Part shown: piece after piece, positions 7,569-57,060 of the stretch | Layout of the letters: each line of letters opens with the position of its first letter | Position numbering within the stretch: the stretch's first letter is position 1 | Assembly (NCBI GenBank): GCA_963402885.1 | Contig: OY727096.1 | Span: 11,761,820 to 11,825,819 of the forward strand | Reading direction: 5' to 3' | DNA from: Antedon bifida | Lineage: Eukaryota > Echinodermata > Crinoidea > Comatulida > Antedonidae | DNA length: 64,000 nucleotides | Program-made: the position numbers and the translations under genes | The notes under the pieces: generated by a model | Seen by the model: the letters and a program-made list of their open reading frames with translations, nothing else | Database searches by the model: none | Told to the model about the DNA's origin: nothing

Positions 7569-7839
7569 TTTAATTTAGGTTAGGCAGGGGCTGGTCTTGG
7601 AGACTTATATTCTTTCCATATTTCGAAGTTCAATTTCCGGGCAACTCTATTTTTCTAAATTATTAATTCCACCCAACCATGGTGGGCTGGTCCTGTAGAC
7701 TTATAATTTCGTTTCATATTGTTTTTATTTAACCATGTTTCATGGGGGTAGCCCATCGAGCAAAGCTGATCGACAATACAATGTACATAATTGGTCAATC
7801 ACGGCTAGCCTCGTCGGTTTCGTTGTGCTGCCTATCGCA
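7569..7839. repeat. duplicated ~270 bp block, copy 2
   Basis: Direct repeat of 5374-5641. It is followed immediately by a degraded family B MITE. Confidence 0.8.
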
Positions 7840-7842
7840 AAG

Positions 7843-8060
7843 ATATTTAATTATTGTCTCCCTGACAAAGTAATTTTTACAAATATTTTTGTTGAATATG
7901 CAATTTTAATGTCACAAAATAGGTATTCACTATTTCACCAAAAATTGGATTAAAAAAATGATATAGTGCATACCCAAAAAACTGTAATTCAAAGCAAAAA
8001 ATAGGCTGGAAGTCAATGTGGTTGTGGTTAAATTAATTGTTTATTTTGTCTTTTTATAAG
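7843..8060 (+). mobile_element. degraded TTAA-target MITE, family B fragment
   Basis: The interior (TTTTTGTTGAATATGC and the phrase about TAATGTCAC) matches the family B copies at 29915 and 42831. The left end is altered and the right end is lost. Confidence 0.5.
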
Positions 8061-8159
8061 TGATATTTCCTCTATTTTTTAGATTAGCTCTTTGATTAAA
8101 CACCTCTTCCAATGCAGTGAAGATCTTAAGTGTCTCCTTGTCTTAGTAATCTTCCTTAA

Positions 8160-8705
8160 AGATGTATTGTCCCTTTGACCAATTCCAAAAAAATAAAAAA
8201 TAACAGATTTCGAAAAAAGGTGGGTCATTTTGAAGTATCATAATAGTTATTAACTCTCACCAAACATTTGTCGAAAAAAAAAATCATTTAACTGAAATAC
8301 AGACGTTTTTTTGTTAAAAAAATAACTCTGACTTCCAGTCAAAGTTTTCGATCAAAACATACCCCATAATGAAACGCGCTTGTTTGGCTACTCTGTATGC
8401 ATAATCATAAAACTTCCTCACAATCTGTGTGAAAATACCTTCTCAACCGTGACGAGTTGTAAACAATCCTAATTAGCATATGCATAATGCGTACTCGTGG
8501 TTTGAAATCTTTGTTTACTTTCGCTCGCGACGATTTTCCAGACGAAAAGTAATAAACTAATTTACCTGTTAATTACGTAAACTTGTTGCTTTTGGCTCGA
8601 ATTTTCGACTTAAAGTGAATAATTTTAATATTACTTTGATATGGCCAATTTAAATTTAGAATATTTTGACCTTCATTTTTTTGTGTTTCAAGGGACAATA
8701 CATCT
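8160..8705 (+). mobile_element. TTAA-target MITE, family A, copy 2
   Basis: It has the same ends and interior as the copy at 5879-6424, the same length (546 bases) and TTAA on both sides (8156-8159, 8706-8709). No open frame of note. Confidence 0.8.
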
Positions 8706-8897
8706 TTAACTTCTCTTTGAGCGATCGTAATCAATATTTGTTGAGGTATAATAATTCCCTCTAATATGGTAATGCATGTTTATTGAGTCAAATTCTTTCT
8801 GATAATCTCTAAATCAAGGATTTTGGTGATATTCATTTCATTTTAATTTTAGTTGATTGACAAACTATATAAGATGGTCCTACTGTATGAAGCCTTA

Positions 8898-18600: not shown

Positions 18601-18639
18601 AATTGATTGATTGATTGAAAATAGAAATATGTGACTGAA

Positions 18640-19840
18640 TTGTAATATCTTTTCGTATGTTAATACACTGTGCTCATGTTGTGGACCCAACTTGGAGCCA
18701 GGGGAACACAGTGATATAAAATAGAAATAAGTCACTGAATTTTAATATCTTTTCGTATGTTACACTATCCTCATGTGGACCCAATTTGGAGCCAGGGGAG
18801 CACAGTGATATAAAATAGAAATAAGTCACTTAATTTTAATATCTTTTCGTATGTTACACTATCCTCATGTGAACCCAATTTGGAGCCAGGGGAGCACAGT
18901 GATATAAAATAGAAATAAGTCACTGAATTTTAATATCTTTTCGTATTTTAATACACTGTGCTCAAGTGGACTCAATTTGGCGCCAGGGAGCACATTGATA
19001 TAAAATAGAAGTAAGTCACTAAATGTTAAATATATTTTCGTATTTTAATACACTGTGCTCAAGTGGACCCAATTTGGATCCAGTGGATCACAGTGATATA
19101 AAATAGAAACAAGTCACTGAATTTTAATATCTTTTCGTATGGTAATACACTGTGCTCAAGTGGAATCAATTTTGCGCCAGGGAGCACAGTGATATAAAAT
19201 AGAAACAAGTGACTGAATGTTAATATGGTTTCGTATGTAATACACTGTGCTCAAGTGGAACCAATTGGGAGTCAGTGAAGCACAGTGATATAAAATAGAA
19301 ACAAGTCACTGAATTTTAATATCTTTTCGTATGGTAATACACTGTGCTTAAGTGGAATCAATTTTGCGCCAGGAAGCACAGTGATATAAAATAGAAACAA
19401 GTGACTGAATGTTAATATGGTTTCGTATGTAATACACTATGCTCAAGTGGAACCAATTGGGAGTCAGTGAAGCACAGTGATATAAAATAGAAATAAGTCA
19501 CTGAATTTTAATATCTTTTCGTATGGTAATACACTGTGCTCAAGTGGAATCAATTTGGAGCCAGTGGAGCACAGTGATATATAGAAACAAGTGACTGAAT
19601 GTTAATATATTTTCGTATTTAATACACTGTGCTCAAGTGGACCCAATTGGGAGTCAGTGAAGCACAGTGATATAAAATAGAAATAAGTCACTGCATTTTT
19701 AATATCTTTTCGTATGTTAATACACTGTGCTCAAGTAGACTCAATTTGGAGCCAGGGGAGCACAGTGATATAAAATAGAAGTAAGTCACTAAATTGTAAT
19801 ATCTTTTCGTATGTTAATACACTGTGCTCAAGTGTTAAAA
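18640..19840 (+). repeat. minisatellite, ~95-100 bp unit, about 13 copies
   Basis: The landmark CTTTTCGTAT recurs every 90-100 bases from about 18650 to 19810. Each unit holds an internal inverted pair CACTGTGCTC / GAGCACAGTG around a variable spacer of about 30 bases, so each unit can form its own hairpin. The same unit occurs once or twice in the left arm near 15640. Confidence 0.9.
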
Positions 19841-20073: not shown

Positions 20074-23000
20074 GTATGTATTGTCAAAAATGTGTGAATT
20101 GTGCATTTTTTGTATATTCAAAGATGCGATTGTATGGCTTTATACGTATTAAATGTCTTTGTATCCGCTCTGGTAGTAATTTGGTAAATATTACTACAGT
20201 TTTAATTAAAAATATTCAGTTAATTTTAGCCATCATGATCGTCGTGAAAGTAGGCTAGGCCTAGCCTCTAGGCCTAGATAGGCCAGGCATAAAAGGGCCT
20301 AGACAAGACCTATATACCTAGCCCAGTACTTCTGGTACCTGCAACGGGCGTGCTTCACATCCTCTAAGCAGTGAGTGAGTGAGTGAGTGGCCGAGCGGTT
20401 ATGACAGTGGAACCGTAATTACGTAGCCATAACATCGGCAAGGGTTCGAGGCTCACTCACTCCATGGTTCTGGTGGTAGAACGAGTCTTCTCGGATAAGG
20501 ACTATAAACCGTAGGTCCAGTGTACACATAGCTCATGTGCACTTTAAAGAACATAGTACATCTTTCGAGACGAGTAGGGGGTTACCCCGGTGTACTAGTC
20601 CCCACAAAACACAACCACTGTCGTCACACACAGCCACTGTGCAATTAATCAGAGACTAAATATCATGCATGCATGCAATAGCATGCGCACAAACCCTGCT
20701 TGTTTTGATCCTTAAGGATCGTTAAGCAGTATTCCGAAAGAAGAAGAACCGTCCCGCTACTATACTCTAGGCCTAGCGGATTACGGTCGAAGCGGCCGCC
20801 AACCAAAGCGGCCGCTAGTTCAATAACGGTAATTTGTATGGAACGCCGTGTGCTCTTTGATTGTCGTTGGTTTGTAATGTAATCTTTGATTGTCATTGTT
20901 TCGACAGGTTTTCTTTACTCGGACGTAAATAACAATCTACATTATTGTAATGTAATTTATTCTCTTTATTTTACAGATTGAATGTGATACGTTCTTTTAA
21001 ACGAAATGGCGAATCGATGATTAGCCTACTTATTTTAACTAAATGATTTTAAATAAATGATATATATGTTTAATAATAAAGTCAATAACATTCATTGTGG
21101 TGTTTGTATTGTATATTAATATAATATATAATAAGCCAATTATTAAGAATGATATACATTTTTTCAATAAAGTATATCACAATATATAGTTTTGTTATTG
21201 TAGCCTATATTAATTAATCAGTAAAGTAACTATACTTTAGTAGTTTCTTCTTCTTTCTAATTTTTTTTACAATATACATGATTTTATACCTTCAGATATA
21301 TAAATCAATTTAAAATGAGTTTTAAATACTAATATAAGATGCAAGTGTCTGTACGGTACGGTAATTAATTACGCCAATTTTTGCTAATAACTCGACTGGC
21401 GTAAATTATTATTGCAATACTGTATAAAGATTCGATAGTAGGTAAACGAGATATAAAGATTCGGCAATACCGTACGCAAACTATTAATGCAATATTGTAT
21501 AATAACGATTCAATAGTATGTAAATGATATATAAAGATTCGGCAATACCGTACGTAAAATATTAATTCAATACTGTATAACGATTCGATAGTATGTAAAT
21601 GAGGTATAAAGATTCGGCAATACCGTACGTAAATTATTAATGCAATACTGTATTACGATTCAATAGTATGTAAATGAGATATAAAGATTCGGCAATACCG
21701 TACGTAAATTATTAATTCAATACTGTATAACGATTCGATAGTATGTAAATGAGGTATAAAGATTCGGCAATACCGTACGTAAATTATTAATTCAATACTG
21801 TATAACGATTCGATAGTATGTAAATGAGATATAAAGATTCGGCAATACCGTACGCAAATTATTAATTCAATACTGTATAACGATTCGATAGTATGTAAAT
21901 GAGGTATAAAGATTCGGCAATACCGTACGTAAATTATTAATGCAATACTGTATAACGATTCGATAGTATGTAAATGAGATATAAAGATTCGGCAATACCG
22001 TACGTAAATTATTAATGCAATACTGTATAACGATTCAATAGTATGTAAATGAGATATAAAGATTCGGCAATACCGTACGTAAATTATTAATTCAATACTG
22101 TATAACGATTCGATAGTATGTAAATGAGGTATAAAGATTCGGCAATACCGTACGTAAATTATTAATGCAATACTGTATAACGATTCAATAGTATGTAAAT
22201 GAGATATAAAGATTCGACAATACCGTACGTAAATTATTAATGTATAGATTCGATAGGAGAGGGTCGAGAAACGTCGTGTCAGTTCAACGTTATATTTTCC
22301 CTTCACTACCAATATAATGAGATATACAAAGTACGTAAATTATTAAATGATTCGATAGTATGTAAATATTAAAAATAGAATATAAGATTCGATAGCATGT
22401 AAGTTAATATTAAAATACATATAAAATATACATTGATTTAACGGCCGGCAAACTTATTATACAACTTGTTATAGAAATATAAAGAAGAGCTGTAACTCAA
22501 CTCGCTATAGGCCATGGCGTTGACAACATCAATCCAAGATTAAAGCGCACACGGCGTTCCATACAAATGACGATATTAAACTGGCGGCCGCTTTGGTTGG
22601 CGGCCGCTTCGACCATACTCCGGCCTAGCCTAGCTAGGCCCTAAGGCCCTATAGGCCTACTCTATAGCCTAGGCCTACCTATTTTTTTTGGTTAACATTA
22701 AAGAATTCCATTATTTTGTTTGGATGAATTATAACAACTCTAGACTAAGACTCTAGGCCTAGGCGTATAGGCTGTGGATTTTCAATTTATCTTTGAGCAT
22801 TTGAATAATAGTGTTGAGTTTGAAAGAGTATAGGTAGGGATACCGAGAGCTGACTCCATTTTCATTACCACGATTAAACAGCGCGCACGTTACTATGCGC
22901 GCAATGTCATTGACGCGGTGTTTTTTTACTTTGGTAAACACTTTTTATTAGGTAATTGTTCTGAAAATAAATTAATTATCAATATATCATTTTGAGTAAA

Positions 23001-26000
23001 TATTTATTTACCTATTATTCTATAAGATCGCTTAGCCTAGCGCGTATAGCTTTGTTTACTACGAAACCCTCGGAAGGTTCAATGACCTACCATTTTCAAC
23101 CTTATTTTTGTAGTTGAGCCTCTTATGACCTCAAAATGTTTTTTATTCCTACACCAAGATAATATAGTTCCACATACCATGTGCTTGTTACTAAGAAAAA
23201 TATTAATTTTAACTGCTAAAAAAACAATTTTATCCCGATATGAGGCCTTTATGATTCGAATATTTCATAGTAACAACCCATATACCATGAAAAATATCCG
23301 TTTTGTCGATTTTTAAAATAATTTTTGAAAAATTCCGAGGGGCTCAACTACAAAAACGCCATTTTATGGTATATATATAATAATAATAATAACTGGTACT
23401 TGATATAGCGCATTATGCTGAAAGCCTCAATGCGCTTTACAAAGACAGAAAATTTTGAAAAATTACAAATTAAAAAGGTGGGTTTTGAGGAGAGATTTGA
23501 AGACACTGGTGGAAGTAGCCTGACGGATTTCAATAGGCAACGCATTCCATAGAGAAACGGATGCCGAAGAAAATGAACGATTTCCATAAAACTTAGTGGA
23601 GGGATGAAATATATGGGCAAGAAGAGACTCAGATCTAGATCTCAGAGACCGCTTAGGAACATAAGGTTGAATAAGTTCAGAAATGAACTTAGATGAAGAA
23701 TTATGAAGAGCTTTGAAAACAAAGAGCAGGATCTTGAAAGTAATTCTTTGTGTTACCGGAAGCCAGTGAAGCTGTCTCAGCACAGGTGTGATATGTTGCC
23801 TTTGAACGACCAATCGGGCAGCTGCCATAAAGTAATGAGTTACAACAGTCTAGCCTTGATGTAACAAAAGCGTGAACAAGAATCTCAGTTGATCTTGAAT
23901 CCAGGTACTTCCGAATGCTTCCAATTTTACGAATAGCGTGAAGCCCAGCTTTGCAGATGTTATGTACCTGATTGGACATACAAAGCGTTGAATCCATGAC
24001 AACTCCAAGGTTTCTACAGGATGACGAAGGTTGAATGAAAGAATTACCAATCTTAACAGAGGCAGTCCAACACGCAGGCTTAAAACGAGAAGAAAAATGA
24101 ATAAGTTCTGTTTTAGCATCATTCATAACCAGGTTGTTAGATTGACACCATGCTCTGACTTCGGCAATACAGGATTCAAGTTTACTGACAGCAGAATTAC
24201 GCTGATTAGGGTTGAAAGTGACATAAAGCTGAGTGTCATCAGCGTACGCCATACACTTCACATTGTGAGATTCAATAAGGTCAAGTAGTGGGGCGGTAAA
24301 TAAAATAAACAGAAGAGGACCAACCACAGACCCTTGTGGAACACCAACTGTAAGCAGAGTCGGGTTCGACAAAACATCCTTGATGACAATGGACTGGGAC
24401 CTATCATTTAGATATGATGCAAACCAATTATGACCAATTCCAGAGATACCGTAACGTGATGATAGACGATGTAATAACTGCTTATGGTTGATGGTGTCAA
24501 AAGCAGCACTGAAGTCTAAAAGGACCATAAGAACCTCATTATGGTTGTCAAGTGCAATGCTAATATCATTATGCACAAGAAGAAGTGCAGATTCTACACT
24601 ATGGTTTGGACGATAGGCGGATTGTCTAGTGGCAAATAACCCATTTCTATTCAGATATGATTGCAGCTGACTGGACACAACCCTCTCAATAATTTTTCCA
24701 AGAAATGGAAGATTGGAAATGGGGAGGTTGATGAAAAAGTTCTGCAATATCTCTCAATCTTATTCTTAAAAAAGTCAGAGAATAGATTTGCAAGAGTTTT
24801 AGCATCATCATGAGCTGGAAGAGGACTAGAGATGGCAGTAGATGTTAACTTGTCAACAACACGGAATAACTTGCGTTGATCACATCCTAATACCTCATCT
24901 TTGTGATACTCCGTCTTGGCCTTATAAAGATGTTCATTGTAGTTAGTGCACTGATTATGGTACAGTTGTTTGTCTACCATGAGACCAGATTTCAGCCACT
25001 TGCGCTCCAGACGTCGACGCTCCTGCTTCATTGAATGATGTTCACCTGTATACCAGGGTGCATGAGGGCGAAGCACAAGAGTGCGAAGCATAGGTGGAGA
25101 ATGAGAATCTAATATTTTCTGTAACGACACATTATACCCCTTCACCATAGAATCAATGTCTCTCGAATCCGGAGGTTTGATTGGCTTGCGATGACATCAT
25201 ACCAACAGGTACAGGATGTGTAGCTTGCAGAAAATTAGACGAAAATGCGTCGGAAACTTATGAAACCAAAACAAGTTTGGTATCAAAATGTTTGTCAAAA
25301 GCTAGGCTTCAACAAACTGACTGCGCAGAGTTTGAAAACATATTTTTATTTAGAAAATTGATGGTGGCATATATATTATATATTTGCATAGCACCACATT
25401 ATGTTTGGAAATTGTGTCCAAATAAACAAAAATAAGATAAAAAGTACTTATTTATGTTTACCCTCTCTCCGGACTGCGCGACTTTCCCGGAGGAATACCA
25501 GCCAGCCAGGTTGTGTGATGATGTCATCATGCACTTCGCGCCCTATAATTGCTTACGGTACTCACCTAGCATCAGGTGATTTAAAACATTTTGCGGTCCA
25601 ATATACGTGATATTTATGTAAAACCAAAGGTGTACACTGTTAGAATATATATCTAAAATATATAAGCAAAATCCCAAAATATTAGGCATGTTTTTCGATT
25701 TTTTACTAACAATTTTAAGCCCAAAATAAAATGTCATCGTGTAGACATGTGGGCAAAAGAATTTCAAATCTATAATCAGTAATTTTCCGGAAAAGATCGT
25801 ACAGTCATTCGTGCACATGGTGACCCCTTTTAAACAGTTTGAAGGTCACACTTTTCTATAGCCTTGAAATGTCTGCTGCCCTCTAGCAGTTTTGCTAGCT
25901 TGTCATAGGGCTAAATTAGTATTAATATATCTAGAATAGAAGGCCTCCAATCTAGATTTTTCAGTTTCATTAACTAACACTAGGCCTAGAAGTTTTAGTA

Positions 26001-29000: not shown

Positions 29001-32000
29001 GTTGAAATATTAGAAAAGACTCTTCTAATGGTAGAATATCTTCTATGAAAACTACATTGTAATTGAAACCACTTTTTAAAATCAATCAAAGATATTTACT
29101 TGAATTAATAAGTTTATTTTATTATTTATCTAGTTCATTAAAATAAAAAATGATAATAAAAAAAATTGATTTGGAATGATTTCAAATTTTAGGTTTCAAT
29201 AAGATGTGTGTTTTTCTCCAAGAATATATTCCCTCATGAATTGACTGTTTTTCATGGCACTGATCAATAACAATGTCCTTACAAGGTAGAGTGCTGATGC
29301 TTCTTGACTAAGGCCTGTCCACACTGGCTATTACGACTTAGAATGGCCTAGATGGATGCCTGTTAGGAGCGTCAAATCTCTAGTAGCATATACAGATATG
29401 TATCATTGCCTACTGTAACTTGTAAGGTACTTGTTTGTAAACTTTGCCATGCGTTAAAATGTACAGTCTTCAGTAGAAATATAATAAGAAAACTTGTATG
29501 ATTTGCTTTGCAATTTTAAAATTTATTATGTTATATTAAGAATATGATGTTTGAATAGCATAAAAATTTAATCTTTTAATCATAAATTCAGGTTATATTT
29601 GTAACTGAAGACCTTACTTATTAACACCATTATAATGTTATTTGTTTTTTACACATGTTTTCAGTTGGTACAGTACACTAACCTATTTCTTCTTTTTTCT
29701 CTTTTGTATCTTACTATTCTTGTCTGTGCATACAGGTGGCAAGACTCCAGATCCATCTTTAAGAACATTTGCCGACACAATGAAAGAAAAGCAACAGGCT
29801 GCACAAGAGGTACATTTTACAGCCTATATAATACCATTCATACCATGTACATAAGCTTAAAAATATTATAAATTATTTACTACAAATTATGTTTTTTGCA
29901 TTATATTTAGTTAAAGATATATTGTCCCCTGAAACATTTTTTTGTTGTTGAATATGGCATTTTAATGTCACCTAATAGTTATCCACTTTGACCAAAAATG
30001 TATTTACCTAAAAAAACTGAAAATCTGTAATTTAAAGCTAAAAATAGTCAAATTGGCTGCCAGCCAATGGGTTTTTAGTTGAATGTAACCATTTATAAAT
30101 GAAATCATTATTTTTGTTTTATCTATGGAAGTGAATAAACTTAATTAAGACTGTATTTTTTTGTGATTTTGGCGGACAATACATCTTTAAAATGATGTTG
30201 ACCCTGATAATGTTGTTTATTTGCTAACTTGGAAATTAAAACATGAGTATGTTATATTATCAATGTGACACTAAATCGATAGTAGGGTGGTTCATAGGGT
30301 TAATAAACACCGTTATCATCGCCTTTAGAAAAAGCATGGACAATGCAAATTAACAGGTTCTAGGACACCTACCCCCTAGACAGTTACCCCCCGGATGTTT
30401 ACCACCCGGACAACTACCCCCGGACAACTACTCCCCGGACAACTACCCCCTTAGGATAACAACCCCCCGGACAACTACCCCCTTAGGACAACTACCCCCT
30501 TAGGATAACTACCCCCCAGACAACTACCCCCCCGGACAACCACCCCCTCTCTTAGGACAACTACCCCCCGGACAACTACCCCCTCTCTTAGGACAACTAC
30601 CCCCAGGACAAATACCCCCATGGCAACTACTCTTGGTTCTCCCGGTAGTGAATACTCAGTCCCGCTTGCTTAATCTAGAAAATTAAAAGGTGAAATATTT
30701 TGATTTATTGATTTGCTTCTTTTAGATAAGACGGGTTAAAAGAAAATGACATCTTCACGTTTTGTGCACCAACACAAACCAAAAACATCATTTTGTTATT
30801 AAAGCACATTTTTCTATATGACGGTTGACCGGTGTGCAGTAGTTAGATGGTTATGATGTTACTTTTAGTTAATATTCATTTAGTGGGAATCATCAGTAAA
30901 GGATATACCTCATTGAGTGGTGATAGACAAATTATTGTTTGCATTGTTGGGGTTTGATTTTATGTATATTTTAATTTATATAACTAACTTACCCTCTCGT
31001 GAATCCTCTGACAAAGATGAAAGAGGCATCCCTTAATTTGGGCATCTGGGAAAACTTGCCTAAGGGCGTTTCTTGCCGCCATTTCATAGTCAATCCGTAT
31101 TGTCGTTGGGTTGAAGTCGCCCAGCTGTCGAATGACTTCCAAAACACGTATGTATGTAGGCTGTGTCTTGTTTCTTAGGAGGGCATAGACAAGTGGTACT
31201 ACATGGCCCTCGTAAACACCATGCACTGTCCACAGTTGGAAAAATATCGCTGGGACGACTTTAAATGTTCCGTCCGCAAACCAGTGGTTAGACGCTGATA
31301 GGACCTATACATGCAAGAAAATTTACATTTAGCGTGACTCATTACTTATTATAATAACAACTGCACGATTTAATAGAATAGGCCCTATAATGTATATTAT
31401 ATAAATACATCAGGCACAGAACAATAATTCTAAGCCGCCCGGTGATATACTGAAATGTTTAATTAATTAATTTGAAACGGTAAGATGAGATACCTGAATG
31501 TTTCTTTCTGTGGCAAACAGGAGAATGCGCTGAGGGTCATCTCTGCCAGAGTCGTGACATAAAAACGGCTCCCCGGCTAGCGACATTGTCTGGTCTGGTA
31601 CTATGTCTAGCTCGTCTATGGTCCTTGGTATAGGCAATGCATTGGGGTTGTTCAACTGTCGTTGTCTCCTAATGTTTCGTCGAATGTTATTCACTTCTGG
31701 AAGGGCAACTTGGCCTTCTTCAGTGGCCTGAGGTAGTGTCCTCATTAATATCTGCTGTGGGCGTTCATTTGTTGTTGTGGCTCTTCGTTTGGTTGCGGCT
31801 TTCACTTTTTCGGCGTTTACCTTTCCATGGGAAGGCGGATGTGAGTGTTCAGTCTGTCCTCTAAACCTGTCGTCACCTAAAACCTAAAACAAAAACAGCT
31901 TAAAATTAAAATTGATAATCACAATGTTTGATAAATTCAAAATTAAAACAATTTCATTAACACATTTTTAAGCATAATATTTAAACAGGTACAGGCCGAG

Positions 32001-35000
32001 TCTTCTCGGATAAGGACTATAAACCGTAGGTCATGTAAAGAACCAGTAGATCTTTCGAAGCAGAGCATGGCATGACTTTTTATGGGAAAAACATGTAGTC
32101 CAAAAGTGTAGGCCTAGCTTTTTAACATTTCTAGATTTTATGTATGCCACACATCCCATATCTAGATTATAAGTTAGTATGTCACCATACGGTCAGACAT
32201 AGATTTCGGTACTAAACATAGTGTCTAAAGTAAGCCTATTTCGGCCAATTATTGAGGCATAATTGATAAAAGCTAACTTTCAATACTGACCTGAACCTTT
32301 GCTCTACACTCTTTTTTATTTCTTCGTTGTTCGCATTCGAAGGACTGCCATCCGTCAGCAAGGTCCTTCTTTTTAACATATATAAATCCACCGAGGAGTA
32401 GCTTCCTTCCACCACGAGTACTTTCAATCCACTCCATCTTATTCTTAGTCGGAGAAATACGTGTGATGTGACTCGACAATTAAACTGAAGTGTACTAAAA
32501 CTATAGTTTTCTCTTTCCACATGGCTCCTTATCGGCATCGGCAGTTCGACGCGTATATCTATACCATATCTGATTATCACGGTAACGCGCGCTGTTTTTG
32601 ATGTCGGAGTACAAAGCCATGCCGAAGTCGTAGAAGTCAACGTCCTGAGCCTGGTGGCATAATGATATTCATTTTAAATGTAAAATTGGCATGACCCTCT
32701 TATTTCAAAACGAAATAAAGTTGTTCAGTGTTTTTTGAAACCATCTTAGTTGTTCTAAAGGGATAGTTGTCTGGGTGGTAGTTGTCCAGGGGTTAGTTGT
32801 CCTACGGAGGTAGTTGTCCTGAAACATTATTTGCCCTCGGAGTATTGTCCAGGTCCAGAGGTAGTTGTCCGCGGGGTAATTACCAGGGGGGGGGGGGGGG
32901 TAATTTTCAGGGGGTAATTGTTCCTAGGGGGTAATTGTCCGGGTGGTAGTTGTCCAGGGGTTAGTTGTCCTACGGAGGTAGTTGTTTTAAAAGATTATTT
33001 GCCCTCGTAGTATTGTCCAGGTCCAGGAGGTAGTTGTCCTACGGGGAGTATTGTGTCAGGGGTAGTTGTCAGCGGGGTAATTACCAGGGGGTGGGGGGGG
33101 GGGGGTAAATTGTCCGGGGGGTAATTGTCTGGGGATAATTGTCCGGGGGTAATTGTTCCTAGGGGGTAATTGTTCCTAGGGGGTAATTGTTCCTAGGGGG
33201 TAATTGTCCCAAGGGGGTTGTTGTCCTAAGGGGGTAGTTGTCCTAAGGGGGTAGTTGTCCTAAGGGGGTAGTTGTCCTAAAGGGGTAGTTGTCCTAAAGG
33301 GGTAGTTGTCCTAAGGGGGTAGTTGTCCTAAGGGGGTAGTTGTCCAGGTGGTGGTTGTCCGGGGGGTAGTTTTCCGGGGGGTAAATGTCCAGGGGGTGAA
33401 TGTCCAGGGGGTGAATGTCCAGGGGGTGAATATCCGGATACGAAATTAACAATGTACTATTCACTAATTAAAATCGGCGCCGCCTTAAAATCCTGCCTAG
33501 GCTAGGAGAAAACAAATTTTGTAGCCTCCCTATGCACTGGTTAACCTAATTTAGCCGGACGAGACGACATTGTGGGCCGAAACGACATTGGAGTCGAGTC
33601 TAATTTTGCGGCCTAGGCTTGCACTATTAATTATTTAATCCTACCTTGGCTTAGCGAAATTATAAATACACCGACGTCAACATAAAAAATATATGCAAAA
33701 ACAATATATTCATTGTTAAGATTTAACATAATCCTATTCAATTATTACGAAATGTCACTGTGTAAAGAAAAATGGCCCTAGTATTCTGTAGCTACCCGGC
33801 GGCCCCTCACCCTGACCAGAATTTTGAGTGATAAAAAAAAAACATGTGCGACTAGTGGGAACAGTTAATTTAGAGGAGGAGAGTATCGTGTTTCATGTCA
33901 AGTGACACAAAATCTAGGTACAGCAGGTACACAATCTTCATCACGTTTCCTGCCATCTAGGTCTGCGCGATCAACGTTCTGATACTATATTTAGAATAAG
34001 TTTAACTTTTTTTAACAATCTTTTGTTGTCGGCATCGTTTCTGGATCGACTGGACGTTCGTTATATTATTTTTAGAAGTTGGCCTAGGCCTACATACAAG
34101 TTCATTGAGGTTCACCGTGTGGTGCCATGTACCTCTACCGTGGGAAATTTCTATTTATATTCGCTGTCTCGAGTAGCTAAAACACACACACGAAAAACGA
34201 TTATGATTAAAAAATAATATTTGGGAAATTCCATGGTAACGAAATTACAATTCACACTGATTTTCGGCCTTTTTTAACCAACCCACAAGATCTGGGTGAG
34301 CTTTGAATAATAAATTTGATATGTGTGTGTAGTACACATACTTACCAATCTAAAACAGCTTAAGGAAATCAATCATGTTGAGTTCTGTAATGATATTCGT
34401 TCATCATCACTGTTACTCAATCTTTCTGACTGCCTAAACACCCTAGTCCAACAATACAATGGAAATCTACTTAACAAGCATGTGCCTGTGGTTGACCGTA
34501 AAATCACTTTACGTCCCCACGACCCGTGGTACAATGACCAACTTCGGAGTAAGAAACATCTAAAGCGTATTGCAGAGAGAAACTGGAAGAAATCAAATAC
34601 CTTTTTCATCTAGTCAACAAACTTACAGATCCAGGTCATGGTCAGGTTTTGCCTTCATATGCTGAACCAGAGGCCCTCACTGAAGAGATAAAATTCAGAA
34701 GGTCAATGACCATATCTCTTTAAGTGTCGATTTACCTCCGGAACATGCAGTGCAACCACCAGCTACTTCAAGTCTGGAAAACTGGGATGTTTTAACATCA
34801 GAGAACATATTGGAAATAATCATGGCATCTCGCACATGATTATGTGACCTTGATCCTCTTCCTACAGCTTTGCTGAAAACCCACATAAATGAGCTCATAA
34901 TGTGTATAACATCCATTATCAACACCTCATTTTCAACAGGTACATTTCCATCACACTTAAAGCATGCCGTCATCACTCCTATAATTAAAAAATCTAAGCT

Positions 35001-38000: not shown

Positions 38001-41000
38001 AGTACATAGTTCAGGATTGTCTAATTCCAGCTATTTTTTCAGTTTTAAATTACACATTCGACCAGGCAAGCAATTTTTGAAGAAATGTGAATTAATGAAA
38101 CAAAAATTTTAGTTGGAACTACATTCCACACATATTAGTAAACAAAAAATGACACTTGAGTGTAGATTCATTCTCCATTGGGGTTCCAATGGAGAATTGC
38201 CCATTTACTTATATGCTTCCGAGTAATTTACAACTTGGTCCTCCGTCAGTCAAAATTAATTAATTTTTCACACCTTGTTACCTCACAATGAACATCGTAG
38301 GGTTGTTTACGAACTACATTTTTTCCGGTAGGTAGGGGGAGCTTTGTGGTTCGCCGACCACCACTCATGACATGCTGGGGAGAACCCTGTTAATATAGTT
38401 ATACATTTTGTGTTTCTTGTACTTTGCAGAGACATCAACAGAATCAGATACTACAAAAACTTAAAGATGGCACGCTTCAGAGGACAGAAGTTCCTAAAGC
38501 TACAGTTACCACAACAAAGAAGAAACGTCGCTGGGATCAAGCTGGTGAAGATACTCCTGGAGCCGTTACACCTAGTAAGAAGAAAACCAGCTCTTGGGAT
38601 CAAGCTGAGGTAAATAATCCAAGATGTAATTTGTTTTGGACATTTTTACTAGATTGAAAATATGATACAACAATGTAAACATGTCTGATCAATATTAGTC
38701 TTTTCAACAAACACCAACCCAAAGTAGATATCCATGAAGCTCCTTGAGTGCAAATAAATATATTGTTTTCTATAGCAACTTTTCACAAAACCACTACAAA
38801 AAGGTATTCATCAACACTAAATTGTCCTAAATTACCTGTCTGCCTCAAATTATTTTTAATATAAATTATTATTTTTTACTTTATAATACGCTTTGTGACA
38901 ACATCCTTAACAAATATCTTTGCCTTTAGAGCTCCACACCCTCACATGGCAGATGGGATGAAACTCCTGGTAGAGCAAAAGGCAGCGAAACACCTGGAGC
39001 CACACCTGGTACTACACGAGTGTGGGAACCAACTCCAGCTCATGCTACTCCAACACACATTACACCAGGTCATGCAACACCTGGTCATACCACACCTGGC
39101 CATGCAACACCTGGTAGAGCTACACCGAGTGCTCGTAAGAACAGATGGGATGAAACACCTAGAACAGAAAGAGGTAAGGAATTAAAAATTATATCTAAAC
39201 TTACACATATACATATATATATATACACCAAGAATGCAGTGTTTGTGGGCTAGATTAAATTGTTAAAACTTTAGCTTGGGTGGTAGGTGCATGTGGCCTT
39301 GCCCATCTGTATCCAACAAAATTACACATTTAACAAATTGATTTGAACAACTTAATAGTAAAATTTATTTTAAATAAATTTATTTGCATAGATCATCATT
39401 TTAAAAATATTTCCTAAACTTATTTAAACAGAAACACCTGGACATGGTAGTGGCTGGGCTGAAACACCCCGAACAGATCGTGGAACAGGTGATGAACCAT
39501 CAATGACTCCTACACCTGGTAGCAAACGAAGATCGCGATGGGATGAGACACCTGGCGGAACCCCTGCAGCTGGTAGTCAGACACCCCAGACCCCAGGTGC
39601 CACTCCTACCTTGAATCATGTTACACCCAAGGGGCCAAAAGCAATGTCAATGAGTACACCTAGTGCCTCAGCTCTTAGGATGATGACCCCAGAACAACTA
39701 CAGGCCTATAGATGGGAGAAGGAGATTGATGATAGAAACAGGCCACTTTCTGAGGATGAACTTGATACTATGTTTCCTGAAGGATATAAGGTAACAAAAT
39801 AAGCTGTAAATAAAAACTAACTAATATATATTATTGTTAATTGATTAAGTTAGATAAATATGTAGTATTAGTTAAATAAGAATATTTAAACAACCATTGC
39901 AACCTACACTGCAAAACCAAAGAAAGCATGATTATAAAGTAATTGCAAAACATCATGTCAATTGTCAAGTCAGGTCTCAAAACTCATCATCAGAGAAACT
40001 TTTTCATTCTATGAAAGGATTAACCGACATCAGGATCACAATTGCTAGTTGATCATATCCTGTACCATCAGAAAAATAAGTTATAGGTTTAACTGTTCAA
40101 TAAAATAGCATCTCTTTATCAGCATCTCAAAATTAAATGTGTGATACATTAAATACATATTATTATTATTATTTAGGTTTTGGCACCACCAGCTGGTTAT
40201 GTACCAATCCGTACCCCAGCACGTAAGCTGATGTCTACCCCTACACCAATGGGCGGAATGAGTGGATTCCACATGCAACAAGAAGACCGAACAGTAGACC
40301 ATGGCCTAGCTCAACCACCAGGCAACCTACCATTCCTCAAACCTGATGATGCACAGTATTTTGACAAGCTTCTGGTAAGTATTTTTTATAGTTCCTGTTT
40401 TTTTCTTCCTGTTTCAAAAGTGCACTATTAAAATGTATCAAGAATAAAGGGCAAGACACAAATGGCTGGGTAATAATAATTGAGGCCTTGAACGTCTTTC
40501 AGTTTTAATTGACGTGCAACATTTTTTATCATATATATTTATATACATACAAATTTGGGGTGTAGGATTATACTTAAGATATACTAATTCATATTCAATA
40601 CAGACAACAAATAAAATGAAAGAAATTCTTTTTAATATATTTAATATTTTATTAAAACTATAGCTTTCTTTATTGCACCAAAAATTGAAATGATTAAATT
40701 TAAATAGATTGACGTTGATGAGAGCACATTGAGTGCTGAAGAGTTGAAAGAAAGAAGAATCATGAAGCTACTGTTGAAGATCAAGAATGGAACACCACCA
40801 ATGCGAAAGGCAGCACTGAGACAAATCACAGATAAGGCTCGGGAGTTTGGTGCCGGTCCTCTGTTTAACCAGATTCTTCCATTGCTTATGTCGCCTACAT
40901 TGGAAGATCAAGAGCGCCATCTGTTGGTAAAGGTCATTGACCGAATCTTGTACAAGCTTGACGATCTTGTACGACCTTTTGTTCACAAGGTAAACATTTT

Positions 41001-44000
41001 AGATTTATGAAATTTATAATTACAAGAGTGTACAAATGACTTTTTGCTTATGTGAAGTTAAACTGTAAATATGTGTCTATATTAATATTTTAATTAATCA
41101 TTGTAGATCCTTGTTGTGATTGAACCACTGCTCATTGATGAAGACTACTACGCTCGTGTAGAAGGTCGTGAGATTATCTCCAACTTGGCAAAAGCTGCCG
41201 GTCTGGCTACCATGATCTCTACCATGCGTCCCGACATCGATAACTTGGACGAGTATGTGAGAAACACAACTGCTCGTGCGTTTGCGGTAGTAGCATCTGC
41301 GCTTGGTATTCCTTCGTTGCTGCCCTTTTTGAAAGCTGTTTGTAGGAGTAAGAAGTCGTGGCAGGCTAGGCATACTGGTATCAAGATTGTACAGCAGATT
41401 GCTATCCTTATGGGGTGTGCCATTCTACCACATCTTAGAAATCTTGTGGAAATCATTGAACATGGTAAGATTTTATACCATACATTTTTATTTCACATGG
41501 TGCTGTGGCTGTACTCCACCATTATTTTACCATTAATTAACTTATTGTAATTTGAGGCACACTTAATTTTTTATTTGCAAAATTATGATCAAATTTTACA
41601 ACTAAATAAGTAATTATAGAAAAAAGACCAATTTCAAACATAGTTTTAACTTTGTTTTAGGTTTGGTTGATGAACAGCAGAAGGTACGAACAATTACAGC
41701 CCTTGCCCTGGCTGCCTTAGCTGAAGCTGCTACACCATATGGTATTGAATCCTTTGATAGTGTACTCAAACCACTTTGGAAAGGTATTAGACAACACAGA
41801 GGAAAGGTATGTTTCTTTTATATGTAAGGTTTTTTTTATACTCGAGGAAAATCCCACAGGATATCTTTTGGTTGATTTGAGATACCATGCCTGAACCTAG
41901 GCCAAAAGTCAATAAAAATTTAAAAAGTGTTGTATATGAACAATAAACTTATAAAACTACTAAGGGGACACCTTCATAGTACTGAATAGGGGTGGTAGTA
42001 GTGTTAGAGCATACAACTTCCCCTCTTTCATTTCATAGGTCATAGTGGTGTCCGAAAGGACTGAATAAAGATAACAATTGTTTTATCTTTGTCATTTGTA
42101 GGGTCTTGCTGCTTTTCTGAAAGCCATTGGCTACCTTATTCCTCTTATGGATCCGGAATACGCAAATTACTACACCAAGGAAGTAATGTTGATCTTGATT
42201 CGTGAGTTTCAGTCTCCTGATGAAGAAATGAAGAAAATTGTTTTAAAGGTGTGTACATACTTAGCTTTACACTGTGCCTTTTATAGATACTGTTTACAAG
42301 AAATGTAGTTTTAAATGTAGTGTTGAAATCAAGTGCAATACATACTCTAAACAATGAAATACTTGACATAATATTTTTGACATAAATTATTATATACAGT
42401 ATAAACAACGAAGGTATACAGTTGTTCAAATATGCAAATAAGGACATGATGGTTTACATATTCAGATGGCTCTTTAAATAATGAGTATAGTCCAATAACT
42501 TAGTTCATATGCTGTTGACGTTGGCCATCTCTGTGTGTAAAGTAAAAAAAGATATCTGAGCTTAAAGTAGGAACCAAAAGAGTATGTGTGTAACCTTTTT
42601 TTCAAGCAATAAATTTGGTTTGAAAGTTATTGGTCTATTTTCAGTGTGTAAAGCTATTTTCTTATCCTTTTGTAGGTTGTAAAGCAGTGTTGTGCAACTG
42701 ATGGTGTTGAGCCGCAGTACATACGTGATGAAGTTCTGCCATCGTTCTTTAAACATTTCTGGCAGCATAGAATGGCGCTTGATAGACGAAATTACAGACA
42801 AGTTAGTTCATATTGTTATAATTTACTTAAAGATGTATTGTCCCCCTGGAAAAATAATTTTTAACAATATTTTTGTTGAATATGCCATTTTAATGTAACA
42901 TAATAGTTATCCACTTGACCAAAAATTGGATCGAAAAAAAAAATGTATTTACCTGAAAAAACTGTAATTTAAAGCAAAAAATGGTCAAATTGGCTCCCAG
43001 CCAATGTGTTTTTGGTTGAATTTAACCATTTATTTTGTCATTTTATGTGTGAAAACATTACTTTTTTTTCTACGGAAATGATTAACTTTATTAAAACTAC
43101 AAATTAACATATTCAAAGTCTGATTTAATTAATCTTCATTTTTCATGTTTTTGGGGGACAATACATCTTTAACTTTACTTAACTTAGTAAAGTTGGGTTT
43201 GAAGTTCACCATGTGTTTAAAACAAGTATGATTAAAAATGTCCCAACGTTTTGGTTGTTATTCTACAATTGTCTTCTGGACTAATGGAAACATCAAGACA
43301 TTCTCAACCATCCTTTATTAACTTCTCTTAAAGGTGGGAGCCAATAATCAAATTTCTAACATTGTATTACCTTGTCAACTAATGTTGATAAAGGGAAAAT
43401 AAATGCTCAAAGTAAAAGTTACCAATATAACCTGATTTAAAAAAATTTTTTGAACTTGTCACTATGGACAAGTTAGGTTATCCGCCACGTGCACGTCATA
43501 CGTTAGAATATTGCGCACAGAAAAACGATTATGCCATTGCGACCTGAAGAAAATATAATGTTAGTGTGTCCTCTATTTTGTGTCTAAGTATATTATATAG
43601 TATACACTATATACTGTATACATACTAAATACAGATAGGTGAAAATAACGTGACCCGCCTTTTATTCCAATTTTTAACATGATGACGTCATCAAAAAGAA
43701 ACACGTAAATAGCAATTTTGGAAGGGAATTTTCTGAGCAATAACATATTAATGTGTTGAAGAAATGTGGATACGTAGAATATTGATGCGCGCTCTTTTAA
43801 ATGTCATGAACTATGACGCAAAATATGAAAAAAAACTTTTATAATTCAACTGGCCATATGATGTGGTACGTGTGGGTGGTGGGAACAGTTAATTTATAGA
43901 GAGTTTCATGTCATGTGACACAAAATCTAAGTAAACGATCTTCGTCGCATTTCCAGGCCTGCCATAATAATATGACCCAAAAAAATCTAGGTCTGCGCGA

Positions 44001-47000
44001 ACGACGTTCCGTCGTTCCGTCCGTACTATAATTTATTTAGAATGTTAACGATCTTTTGTTGTCGGCATCGTTTCTGGATCGACTGGACGTTTTATTTTTA
44101 GAAGTTGGCCTACCTAAGCCTATACTAGTTCATTGAGGTTCACCGTGTGGTGCCATCATGCCTCTACCGTGGGAAATTTCTATTTATTTATATATTCGCC
44201 GTCGAGTCTAGTAGAAAAAAAACACCATGAAGAAAATTATTACGATTTTAATAATGCTTCCGAGTAATTTATAACTTGGTCCTCCGTCAGTCAAAATTGA
44301 CTCATTCATTTTGCACATCTTGTTACCTCACAAAAACTTCGTAAGGTTGTCTACGAAATGCATTTTTCCGACCTTATTATGAAATGCGTGGGTTTGGCAG
44401 AGTAGTTAGTGACATCCCTGCAACACGTATTAAATAGGCCTATGATTATTGTCATGGCCCTGATGACTATAAACCAACATAAATCTCAAGTGGTCATATT
44501 CACTAAGAGAAACACTTACCATTAAAATTAAGAGAAATCTCCTATCTAAGTGAATACAATTTAAAAGGGAAATACTTAAATATTTATTGAGTTAAGTGAA
44601 GTACTTAATATTTAAAAGAAATATCTCACTTATAGAATAATTCAGGATTTGTAGTGAATAAGTAAAAATACTTTATTATCATTTTTGTATAACTAGCTTG
44701 TGGACACAACAGTTGAGCTGGCCAACAAGGTTGGAGCAGCTGAAATTATTGGACGTATTGTGGATGATCTCAAAGATGAAGCTGAACAGTACCGTAAGAT
44801 GGTCATGGAAACCATTGAAAAGATTATGGATAACTTGGGGGCAGCAGACATTGATTCAAGACTTGAGGAACAGCTTATTGATGGAATATTGTATGCGTTT
44901 CAGGAACAGACAACAGAGGTAGGACAATTTCTAGTTGTAGGTTTTAGATACTGATTAGCTTTCACAACATGCTATGACTTTATAGCTACTTGGTCAACTA
45001 GTCTATTTTCCTATTCTTTGCTATTTTTTCAACAATTTGTTTTTGGTTTCATACATCAAAGATGTGTACACGTACAAGATATTATTTCTTCCACATCAAT
45101 AATAAAACCTTGTTCAAACCTTGTCTTTGTGTGTGGAAAAGCAATTAAACAAATAACTATTTCATATGTCATTAGCATCAATTTAGGTAACAATTGTTAA
45201 AAATAAAAAAAAAATTATTTTGTTTTTAGGATGTTGTTATGTTGAATGGATTTGGTACAGTAGTGAATGCATTAAGCAAGCGTGTTAAGCCATACCTGCC
45301 TCAGATCTGTGGTACCATCTTGTGGCGTCTCAACAATAAGGCAGCCAAAGTTAGACAGCAAGCTGCTGATCTTATCTCAAGAATCGCTGTAGTTATGAGG
45401 ACTTGTCAAGAGGTATGTTATTTAAAAACCTTGGTGATAACAGTAAACTCTCTGAAAACCTTATACCCTAAAACGTTAAGTTTTCTGGTTTTCTTTTATA
45501 GTATTAATAGGTAAGAGAAAGTCTTGTTTTTGGAGAGTTTACAGTTTACAGTCAATAACTCAAGTTTCAGATAATATAATGCAGATTTTAGTCCACAATT
45601 CAAAATGTTATATGTTTATATAATTATTAATACAATACAATAAGGTGCCTTGCCTAACCTCCATTATATGAATTGTGAGATGTTTTGTTGAATGAAAGAG
45701 GGTTTCTGTATAATAAAATCTTAAGTAAGTCTTAAGCCTGAAGTATGCGATATGGAAGTAAGCGCAACGTTACTGATTTGACCAATCACAAACAATAGAT
45801 TATTCAAACTTTCGGTTGGCATTGGTCAACACGCTTGCATTGCATCAATGCCCTTTTGTATCTCTAGTGGGAACCAAGCTTAAATAAACATTCAATACAA
45901 AATAAATGATTTCCAGTAAACTTGATGTTGAACTCTCTCATCTCATAAATAATCATGAATTGTTGTTTTGATTTCTTCACAGGAGAAACTGATGGGTCAT
46001 TTAGGTGTTGTGTTGTATGAGTACTTAGGAGAAGAGTACCCTGAAGTGTTGGGTAGTATCTTGGGTGCATTGAAAGCCATTGTCAATGTGATTGGTATGA
46101 CAAAGATGACACCACCTATTAAAGATCTCTTGCCTAGGCTTACTCCTATATTGAAAAACCGGTAAGGATCGAAAAATGGTATTATAAACCATTATAAGTT
46201 GTATTTCAAAATACACTTATGATTTAACAATTGAAATATGATGTAATAATAAATATGAATTTAAATATTTATTTATATTATGGCGGTGTATTGTTTAATA
46301 ATTTATATATGAATTAAACAATGTCAGTTTCAATTAATAATTAGTTATGTACAAAAATAGATACATACACTTCTCCTTCATCATATACCTTTGTTAAACA
46401 TGTTGATGTTTTTAAGAAAGTAATTAGAAATTTAAATTCCAGTGCTTTGTTAATCAATACTTCAAAAATATTTATGATGTCCAAGGCAAACAATTATTCC
46501 TGTAAAACAATTTTTTTTCAGACATGAAAAAGTACAAGAAAACTGTATTGATCTGGTGGGTCGTATTGCTGATCGTGGCGCTGAATTTGTGTCTGCTCGT
46601 GAGTGGATGAGAATTTGCTTTGAACTGCTGGAGCTTTTGAAGGCCCACAAAAAAGCAATTCGCAGAGCTACAGTCAACACATTTGGTTACATCGCCAAAG
46701 CTATTGGGTGAGTGAAATATTCAAATTAATTTATAAGTATTTATTTTCTAGATATAAAAACTGAAAACCATTTATCAGATGAAACAGGGATCGAATTTCC
46801 AGACGGCACCGACGCAATTGCTTTAGAAAGGGCCTTGAACTGCTGTGGTAAACCCTCATTTTGACAGCAAAAAATTGCTGTTAAAACCTACCCAACATTA
46901 AATTATCAGCACATACAATTCCCCAATTTTTGTTGAACATTCCTACAATATACTCATTTTTTAAGCAATGCTTGACATCAATTCCTTTTTTTTGTACCGT

Positions 47001-53354: not shown

Positions 53355-53358
53355 TTAA

Positions 53359-53891
53359 AGATGTATTGTCCCTTGAAACACAAAAAATATTCTAAATTTA
53401 AATTGGCCATATCAAAGTAATATTAAAGTTATTCACTTTAAGTCGAAAATTTGAGTCAAAAACAACAATTTTACGTAATTAAAAGCTAAATTAATTAATT
53501 ACATTTCGTCTGGCAAATCGTCGCGAGCGAAAGTAAACAAAGATTTCAAACCACGAGTATACATTATGCATGATGCTAATTAGGATTGTTTACAACTCTT
53601 CACGGTTGAGAAGGTGTTTTCACACAGATCGCGAGGAAGTTTTATGAGTATGCATACAGAGTAGCCAAATAAGCGCGTTGCATTATGAGGTATGTTTTGA
53701 TTGAAAACTTTGACTGGAAGTCAAAGTTATTTTTTGAACCAAAAAACGTCTGTATTTCAGTTAAATGATTTTTTTTTCGACTAATTTTTGGTGAAAGTTA
53801 ATAACTATTATGATACTTCAAAATGACCCACTTTTTTTCGAAATCTTTTATTTTTTATTTTTTGGGAATTTGACAAAGGGACAATAAATCT
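53359..53891 (-). mobile_element. TTAA-target MITE, family A, copy 3
   Basis: Inverted relative to the copies at 5879 and 8160, with the same termini and TTAA flanks (53355-53358, 53892-53895). Confidence 0.8.
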
Positions 53892-53895
53892 TTAA

Positions 53896-54819: not shown

Positions 54820-55515
54820 GGGTACTACTAAACACCACTCGCAACCACGTCCTACCATTCGCAACCACTCGCTACAACGCGCAACCACTCGCAGCCGAAA
54901 TTCATATTAATTAAAGTACATTTGGCTTATTTATTGTCTTATTATCAATAAAAACCTATTTTTATACACATATAAACGTCAAATTAGTCAAAAAACGACG
55001 GAAAAACAATCGTCATTCAACACGTCAACATCGTCCACGACGATGTACATGTGTACACAGTACTCATAGAGGACTTGTGTCAAGTGTGCCAGCCGTTAAT
55101 CATTCCAATGTTTTTCATAACGTTTATGTCATTTAACCATTATTTTATTTCTTTAGATGTAATACAGTTACTGACAGAACGAAAATACAAGGATTTTATT
55201 TTCTCTCTCAGATCTGAATAGATTAATTTATATATTAAAATAGTATATGGTCTTATATGAATTATATTCAAATCAAAGGTCTATTCTATATAGTTGACGC
55301 AATAGTCCCATTGTTGACGCTGAATGCGATAGAAAATGCACAACAACGCAGTTTCTATCGATGTTTTGTGTATAAAAGCACCATTTTTTGTATAAAAATA
55401 GGTTTTTATTGATAATAAGACAATGAATAAATAAATGAATTTCGGTTGCGCGTTGTAGCGAGTGGTTGCGAGTGGTAGGACGTGGTTGTTGCGAGTGGTG
55501 TTTAGTAGTAGGACC
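54820..55515. mobile_element. element with tandem-repeat inverted termini (CACTCGCAACCA type)
   Basis: The left arm (54820-~54970) and right arm (~55375-55515) are inverted copies. Each opens with GGGTACTACTAAACACCAC or a close variant, then about four units related to CACTCGCAACCA, then GACAATAAATAA / ATCAATAAAAACC sequence. Flanking 9-mers CAGCGTCAC and CGTCGTCAC match at 7 of 9 positions, a possible decayed MULE-type target duplication. The core is non-coding. Confidence 0.7.
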
Positions 55516-55689
55516 CGTCGTCACCACCTGACGTCACACAGGTGGCAGGATATTTCTGATCTGTAAAATGTGTGGTGTGTTTGAGCTGGATTTTCTATGA
55601 AAAAACAATAGGGCGCTAGTTCCGTTTCGCACCTGTTTTTATTTCGACTTCTTTTTGACTCCAAATTGTTAAGCAACTTATTGTGAATA

Positions 55690-56329
55690 CCACACCTTAA
55701 AATTGGGCCTCATAAGTACTTTTATGAAGAAGAATCACATAAGAAGTAACAAATAAATCCTTTAATTGATGATTTTACAGACATGTTTCTCGCGTGACCG
55801 TTCGCGAATTTAGCATACAAGTTCAATATTTTCGTTTCTATGGAGCGCCAAAAGGGCAGCAACAATAGATGGTTAAAAACTCAGTGGAATGCGTCTTCTT
55901 TTAATGCATTTGTTATTAAAATACACGTTTAATTTTAATATATTTTGTCAATAAAAATGCTGTAACATTTTACTGCTAATAATTTGCTGTTTTCAAATAG
56001 CAACCAACCCTAGGCCTAAGACTAAGACTAAGAGGAATATTATTTAGATCAGGTATACCCCTACAGTACATGTATATGATGATGAATTTTTCGTTTTTCA
56101 TACCTAAAAGTTCCTGCGAAAACTATGTACAGTATCAACAATAATATTTTTGTTGCATTGACATTGACAAAATATGATAAAATTAAATGTAATTTTCACC
56201 AATGAATGCATTAAATATACGCAATTTACTGAGTTTTTAGCCCTCTATTATGATTGCTCTTTTGGCGCTCCATAGAAACAACAACATTGAACATGGAGTA
56301 TGCGAAATTCACGATAGGCAGTTTGCTGC
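55690..56329. repeat. dispersed repeat D, copy 1, split, with inverted 110 bp arms
   Basis: 55690-55815 matches the - strand of 63345-63479. Within it, 55785-55900 and 56226-56320 are inverted copies (GGCGCTCCATAGAAAC, GTTTCTATGGAGCGCC). The repeat resumes after 56943, so this locus has at least two nested insertions. Confidence 0.65.
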
Positions 56330-56943
56330 GGTTCAGGGACGATTCGGCCCTGAGACGATTCGGCCCGGGACTATTCGGCCCACTTTTGGTGGGACGATTC
56401 GGCCCACTTTTGGGCCGAAACATCCCACTTTGTGGGCCGAAACGTCTCACTTTAGACCAAATTCATATTCATTTTTTTTTTATTTATCAAGTTTTTAAAG
56501 GTGTTTAACAATCCGTATTTTATTGATATTGACAAAGTTGATATAATATATATAATAAATTACTAAAAAAACGTAATTTTATATTCAATTTATTACTTCG
56601 AAAACCTTGTTTATTTCGTGCATTCGCCAAGCGGCCAACAGAGGGCGTAACTTATTTACATCGTTCGCGTGACTAAAAAATGATTATTTTCGACAATGTT
56701 TTCAAAATGTTTGCTTTATTGCATCTTTATCCCTAGTAGTGCTACCCCATAGTCTCTCTGAAAATAAAGTTTGGGGAAAAAAGCTTATTTTATGCTTATA
56801 AATGCATATCAAAGCCGATAAATGTAAGTGTGCCGAATCGTCTCAGGGCCGAATCGTCCCGGGCCGAATAGTCCCGGGCCGAATCGTCCCAGGGCCGAAT
56901 CGTCCCGGGCCGAATCGTCTCAGGGCCGAATCGTCCCGTTACC
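56330..56943. mobile_element. short element whose termini are inverted GGGACGATTCGGCCC arrays
   Basis: The left end starts GGTTCAGGGACGATTCGGCC and the right end, inverted, starts GGTAACGGGACGATTCGGCC. The left array holds about four units and the right about seven units of ~19 bases. TTTGCTGC is duplicated on both sides (56322-56329, 56944-56951), with the ninth base mismatched. The related sequence near 63340 has the site once and lacks the element. The core of ~370 bases is AT-rich and non-coding. The architecture and the 8-9 bp duplication match the MULE in intron 5. Confidence 0.85.
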
Positions 56944-57060
56944 TTTGCTGCAGCACGTCGCTGAGGATATGCCCTACATATATTGCATTTTCCTTGAGGT
57001 ATTGCCTGTACCATTTGTTCGTGGGTATTTGTTTTCCACTGTAATTTCGCGTCAAGTGGC
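56944..57060 (+). repeat. dispersed repeat D, copy 1, continuation
   Basis: GCTGCAGCACGTCGCTGAG and TTGAGGTATTGCCTGT match the - strand of 63235-63345. Confidence 0.7.

Follow-up and report, generated by a model that had tools for sequence, protein, structure and literature searches.

The locus at positions 30356-33442 of a 64,000-nt stretch of the Antedon bifida genome (contig OY727096.1, positions 11,761,820 to 11,825,819; the whole stretch is called the window here, and all chance expectations were computed for it) raises the question of what a transposase gene enclosed by two long inverted minisatellites represents: whether the minisatellites are the ends of the element, to which lineage it belongs and whether this copy could still move by itself. 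We propose that this transposon, element A, is an internally deleted, non-autonomous MULE of the Phantom/Muta branch with foldback-type ends, a reading which, judged from its sequence, we consider probable at about 0.85. A first-pass annotation had described a MULE-type transposon with a transposase in three correctly phased exons, inverted minisatellite termini and a perfect 9-bp target duplication, and in these four respects it stands; the extent of the transposase and the exact make-up of the ends required revision.

The ends of element A are laid out as follows.

30347-30355, + strand: left copy of the target duplication, AAATTAACA
30356-30362, + strand: left 7-bp tip, GGTTCTA, beyond the array
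30363-30634, + strand: left array, 16 parsed GGACAACTACCCCC units with spacers, the final unit decayed
32759-33435, - strand: right array, 39 parsed units, several of them duplicated within the array (104 aligned columns)
33436-33442, - strand: right 7-bp tip, CGTATCC when read inward, beyond the array
33443-33451, + strand: right copy of the target duplication

Both arrays are detected by Tandem Repeats Finder (TRF) and consist of a 14-bp unit, GGACAACTACCCCC, in inverted orientation on either side of the gene. When up to 3 mismatches are allowed, the core of this unit has 48 matches in the window, where chance predicts 1.87 (the maximum in 100 shuffles being 6), and every one of these matches falls within element A, 15 on the + strand (30363-30619) and 33 on the - strand (32759-33420). 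Parsing with up to 4 edits over 30356-30660 and 32731-33442 gave the unit counts listed above, close to but not equal to the roughly 14 left and 35 right copies counted initially; one extra diverged left unit, starting at about 30393 inside a spacer, is excluded from the left total. The start-to-start steps between units are mostly 15 bp (6 of 15 on the left, 13 of 38 on the right) or 17 bp (3 of 15 and 12 of 38), the remaining steps measuring 14-31 bp, and TRF reports periods of 15, 17 and multiples, rather than the period of about 20 bp given at first. The best local alignment between the two arms, which are about 280 bp (left) and 680 bp (right) long, covers most of the left arm, as expected for one inverted repeat, but tandem arrays of the same unit would align anyway. 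The right array contains two versions of a multi-unit stretch, which align over 104 columns with 6 mismatches and 2 one-base gaps and point to growth of the array via duplication. Element A therefore has the inverted ends, built of short tandem units in variable number, that define the foldback type. The first-pass suggestion of quadruplexes on the G-rich strand fares less well: with loops of up to 7 nt there are two matches in the right array and none in the left, and as both coincide with long runs of G (32886-32900 and near 33093-33105) we rejected the quadruplex as a canonical feature of the unit. With loops of up to 12 nt, where the units themselves fit, 5 matches are found on the right and 3 on the left.

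The arrays are not the very ends of the element, as they had been taken to be, for at both ends a 7-bp non-repeat tip separates the array from the duplication, as it does in the nematode transposon Tm1. A common 9-mer at two random window positions has a probability of 2.8e-5, and when both boundaries are free to slide by 10 bp in either direction one is found in 0.5% of random pairs (P 0.005), so that the duplication by itself is good, not overwhelming, evidence; that the first GGA unit is set in from the duplication by an equal 7 bp on either side makes a chance origin even less likely. These observations bear directly on the alternative in which a decayed MULE remnant happens to lie between pre-existing or independently grown minisatellites that are not its ends. 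Such an arrangement would account for the unequal lengths of the arrays, and tandem arrays are indeed frequent in the window (47 TRF rows, merged by hand into 24 arrays), whereas it leaves unexplained why one unit should occur inverted in the same register of 7 bp and GGA, why a perfect 9-bp duplication should lie directly beyond the tips, and why Tm1 and the Muta elements share this plan (PMC3169594, PMC5225508). We regard it as very improbable indeed.

The predicted gene of element A lies on the minus strand.

32291-32437, - strand: transposase exon 1, with C35 and C44 in the opening part of the FLYWCH finger
31494-31883, - strand: transposase exon 2, with H62 and H64 of the FLYWCH finger and a linker
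30993-31304, - strand: transposase exon 3, MULE domain with D190, D251, C272 and H275, terminating at the donor GTAAGT
30704-30709, - strand: AATAAA, a polyadenylation-like signal in the tail of the gene, a consensus match only and possibly due to chance

We take C35, C44, H62 and H64 to be the zinc ligands of the FLYWCH finger. The three exons (147, 390 and 312 nt) are in phase 0 throughout, are separated by GT..AG introns and together encode a predicted protein of 283 aa; an alternative acceptor for exon 2 disrupts the reading frame. At the N-terminus, residues 4-64 match the Pfam FLYWCH domain (PF04500, 3.1e-7), and this match spans the junction of exons 1 and 2, thereby supporting the splicing model. 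Residues 187-278 match the MULE domain (PF10551, 3.6e-15) over positions 2-98 of the 99 in the profile. These domain matches settle the superfamily of the predicted transposase; a PDB sequence search returned no match up to E 1. Element A thus combines a MULE/DDE domain with a 9-bp duplication, within the 8-11 bp given for the MULE superfamily (PMC6446971).

The same protein argues that this copy is incomplete. The catalytic landmarks D190, D251 and CxxH (C272, H275) are kept, and the second D and the H are 24 residues apart both here (D251-H275) and in the Aedes aegypti element Muta1 (D283-H307), the two aspartates being separated by 61 residues in element A and 69 in Muta1 (PMC5225508). Muta1 has a 504-aa transposase, is mobile in yeast, where it produces 8-9 bp duplications, and requires each of D, D and E as well as H and W (W401, E419), the W and E lying 118 and 136 residues after the second D (PMC5225508). 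In contrast, the frame of element A stops at the GTAAGT donor directly after the MULE domain, 32 residues past D251. The 358 bp that separate the last exon from the left array contain no stop-free stretch longer than 45 residues, and the one of that length has no Pfam match up to E 10. A pattern scan for the third catalytic (E) region, made without a positive control, gave 7 matches in the window and none within 30356-33442. This copy accordingly presents no complete D-D-E set, and as no part able to carry the third catalytic residue was found it looks internally deleted and non-autonomous, rather than carrying the whole transposase that had been assumed. Internal deletion of the last coding exon or exons is the simplest account of the truncated frame; a short additional exon may exist, but it would be too small to supply the part of Muta1 that holds W and E. 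MULE transposases truncated to 236-295 aa, with the terminal inverted repeats (TIRs) on either side intact, have been described for 17 arthropod types (PMC13359780). The incomplete D-D-E set concerns the autonomy of this copy, not its descent.

Could element A nevertheless still be autonomous, or be a domesticated host gene, with the 283-aa protein or a version containing an unrecognised exon being functional? The absence of stops over three exons, the sound splice sites with a good donor after exon 3, the full C2H2 candidate set in the FLYWCH finger and the stop-free stretch ahead of the left array are all in keeping with this. That stretch, however, resembles no Pfam domain, the E-region pattern disclosed no third catalytic region in the element, and Muta1 cannot dispense with any of D, D, E, H and W (PMC5225508), while a fairly young insertion with an undecayed frame explains the open frame equally well. 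A functional copy is therefore highly unlikely in our judgement, and we retain internal deletion as the preferred reading.

Foldback elements such as FB/NOF of Drosophila and TU of sea urchins have long inverted ends made of tandem units in variable number. A sea urchin foldback element is cited in PMC4079207. Among MULEs, a close published plan is that of Tm1 from root-knot nematodes (Gross & Williamson 2011), which encodes a 496-aa FLYWCH-MULE protein with the MULE domain at 197-294 and whose ends have an asymmetric 7-bp motif (CGGTTAA or CCTACCC), followed by GGA and then by 13-15 bp units that vary in number (PMC3169594). Tm1 and element A have in common a FLYWCH and MULE transposase with introns, asymmetric 7-bp tips, GGA and short tandem units in varying number. 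The duplications are also alike, those of Tm1 being 8-10 bp in 45 of 53 elements that bear both end motifs, and mostly 9 bp, as are the small non-coding relatives (PMC3169594). The two differ in that the arrays of element A are long, in its truncated transposase and in the sequence of the unit (CGATTCAGTATCCGC in Tm1, GGACAACTACCCCC in element A), so that the shared sequence expected of a member of the Tm1 family is absent; Tm1 also has a purine-rich inner motif (PMC3169594).

The Muta1-Muta14 families of Aedes aegypti show a similar plan, with tandem repeats of 9-15 bp in 10 of the 12 long-TIR families, an N-terminal FLYWCH finger in 13 of 14 and 8-9 bp duplications in all (PMC5225508). The TIRs of Muta1 are 145 bp long and hold 9 repeats of 12 bp, against arms of about 280 and 680 bp in the truncated copy described here (PMC5225508). 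The Phantom family (Marquez & Pritham 2010) resembles element A in its FLYWCH and MULE domains and in the size of its duplications, 8-10 bp, and some of its members have FB-like ends (PMC6446971, PMC3169594). In a phylogenetic survey of MULEs, the TIRs given for Phantom measure 18-613 bp, the longest falling slightly short of the right arm of element A, and minisatellites are recorded for aphid Phantom as well as for Rehavkus (PMC6446971). As the ends of Tm1 and of the Muta elements are tandem, the premise of the first-pass annotation that MULE ends are not tandem fails, and with it the view that tandem ends set element A apart: Tm1 and most long-TIR Muta families are alike in this. No paper on element A was among the literature matches listed, which carries little weight.

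Foldback ends have arisen in several superfamilies (PMC3169594, PMC3688188), and element A might instead belong to another such lineage, namely Rehavkus, FB-NOF or a P-type element like Galileo, or to another FLYWCH-bearing clade of MULEs. Rehavkus has both 9-bp duplications and a minisatellite, and the FLYWCH finger occurs in several MULE groups (PMC6446971). For Rehavkus, however, a PHD finger is reported, together with a minisatellite preceding the 3′ TIR (PMC6446971), and we set it aside, for no PHD match was found up to E 0.01 and the arrays of element A stand at both ends. Galileo also has long inverted ends in which the number of tandem units varies, but its transposase is of the THAP/P-element type (PMC3688188); it was likewise rejected, the Pfam matches of element A up to E 0.01 being FLYWCH and MULE only. 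Placement outside the Phantom/Muta branch is thus unlikely, and that branch remains our preferred assignment.

Two further pairs of inverted arrays lie in the window. When the 46 pairs of merged arrays within 5 kb of each other were scored for inverted units, three scored at least 0.75, namely element A and the pairs designated C and B, and the next best reached 0.38.

54820-55518, no strand assigned: element B, inverted arrays of a 10-bp unit, ACCACTCGCA, with provisional boundaries
56322-56329, + strand: left copy of the element C target duplication, TTTGCTGC
56330-56943, no strand assigned: element C, 614 bp, 7-bp tips and GGA followed by inverted arrays of GGACGATTCGGCCC
56944-56951, + strand: right copy of the element C target duplication

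Element C looks like a small relative of element A that shares its end layout. Its tips, GGTTCAG and GGTAACG, are each followed by GGA, so that the layout of 7 bp and then GGA is found at all four ends of A and C (left and right of each), and it contains no stop-free frame of at least 90 aa wholly within its limits. The duplication TTTGCTGC is an exact 8 bp; it is good but less certain than that of element A, given that a common 8-mer is found in 1.5% of random pairs with a boundary freedom of 10 bp. With up to 3 mismatches the GGACGATTCGGCCC core has 22 matches in the window, against 0.86 expected overall, and 19 of them fall in 56336-56937, the 3 outside having 3 mismatches each; the unit is partly palindromic, and several matches represent one site on both strands. 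In fixed register the units of A and C are identical at 9 of 14 positions, which is reached by 0.25% of shuffles, but this falls to 6 of 11 (5.9% of shuffles) when GGA is excluded, and we accordingly make no strong claim of kinship between the units. Element B has a 42-bp inverted repeat inward of its arrays (54927-54968 and 55389-55430, 98% complementary), but no clear target duplication of 8-9 bp could be found, the best candidate being CGTCAC at 6 bp, and it is at most a possible third MULE. By blastn at E 1e-4 no further copies of A, B or C exist in the window, and a single match lies outside them: 36 bp of intron 1 of element A (31997-32032) recur exactly at 20482-20517 and may belong to a short interspersed repeat.

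Several points weigh against our reading of element A and its ends. The tips resemble those of Tm1 weakly, the right tip matching at 5 of 7 positions with A2 and the left at 3 of 7 with A1 in ungapped comparison by eye, and the layout of 7 bp and GGA is absent from element B (0 of 2 ends, with its provisional boundaries). Only a single copy with coding sequence is present in the 64-kb window. FLYWCH fingers are known from MULE groups beyond Phantom/Muta as well (PMC6446971), and a 2013 paper, in which the tandem repeats of Galileo are reported to bind the domain of its transposase, called such binding untested for Foldback and Phantom (PMC3688188). Finally, six exact peptide patterns, which detect close relatives only, revealed no relatives in viral_contigs or genome_contigs, where animal transposons are hardly expected; the 7 stretches matched in the former and 40 in the latter each correspond to one of the six patterns and none was confirmed, and an exact double-unit pattern had no match in viral_contigs.

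We propose the following model for the mobility of element A. A full-length transposase supplied by another copy would use its FLYWCH finger to bind the 14-bp units of the arrays, many weak sites at each end raising the affinity and specificity of binding. That the arrays offer repeated sites to the transposase, and that they change in length, may reasonably be inferred, as the first-pass annotation did. The bound transposase would then pair both ends and cut at the 7-bp tip beside the first GGA unit, and insertion with a 9-bp stagger would leave the AAATTAACA copies seen on either side. Over time the arrays would lengthen or shorten through unequal exchange or slippage, as the unequal arms and the 104-column duplication of the right arm suggest. 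Loss of the last coding exon or exons by internal deletion would account for their absence as far as our searches extend, the 3′ tail with its polyadenylation-like signal presumably being retained after the deletion.

Element A adds a well-marked example of a foldback-type MULE with many units per arm and leaves the general picture of MULEs unchanged. What is new in the window is the small element C, with another unit, the same layout of tip and GGA and an 8-bp duplication, and the third pair of inverted arrays, B; through A and C, two families that differ in their units but agree in end layout can be compared within one window. At most, novelty would lie in an end layout common to phyla with fast turnover of the unit. 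We tentatively entertain, as a possibility more doubtful than not, that a 7-bp tip, GGA and a repeated unit of about 14-16 bp represent an ancient end rule of FLYWCH-MULEs, extending from nematodes to Antedon bifida, the unit sequence changing so quickly that A and C differ within a single 64-kb window. Were this so, transposase and unit would co-evolve, the GGA register would fix the cut and the array would act as a tunable binding platform. The shared layout was noticed after the fact and comes from two elements here and one published family, with tip sequences weakly like those of Tm1, and is therefore suggestive only.

Between B and C, at 55818-56295, is a MITE-like inverted repeat (that is, like a miniature inverted-repeat transposable element) of 77 nt (82%) plus 61 nt (77%). 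A unit of about 1.5-1.6 kb occurs in tandem at 439-8712, with copies 89-93% alike and inverted copies near 6425-7525, and part of this repeat is found again at 53355-53895 (inverted) and 8156-8712 (direct). Further arrays comprise a 157-bp satellite at 58527-60981 (15.6 copies, 97% matches) and units of 97 bp (18618-19834) and 75 bp (21400-22242). A reverse transcriptase frame on the - strand at 23704-24753 (Pfam RVT_1, 6.6e-31) probably belongs to an element of the long interspersed (LINE) type. Finally, 39428-39799 holds an exon of the splicing factor SF3B1 (Pfam SF3b1, 2.9e-29), and 41107-41547 and 45230-45511 look, by eye only, like further SF3B1 exons, the latter with HEAT matches below the Pfam cut-offs.

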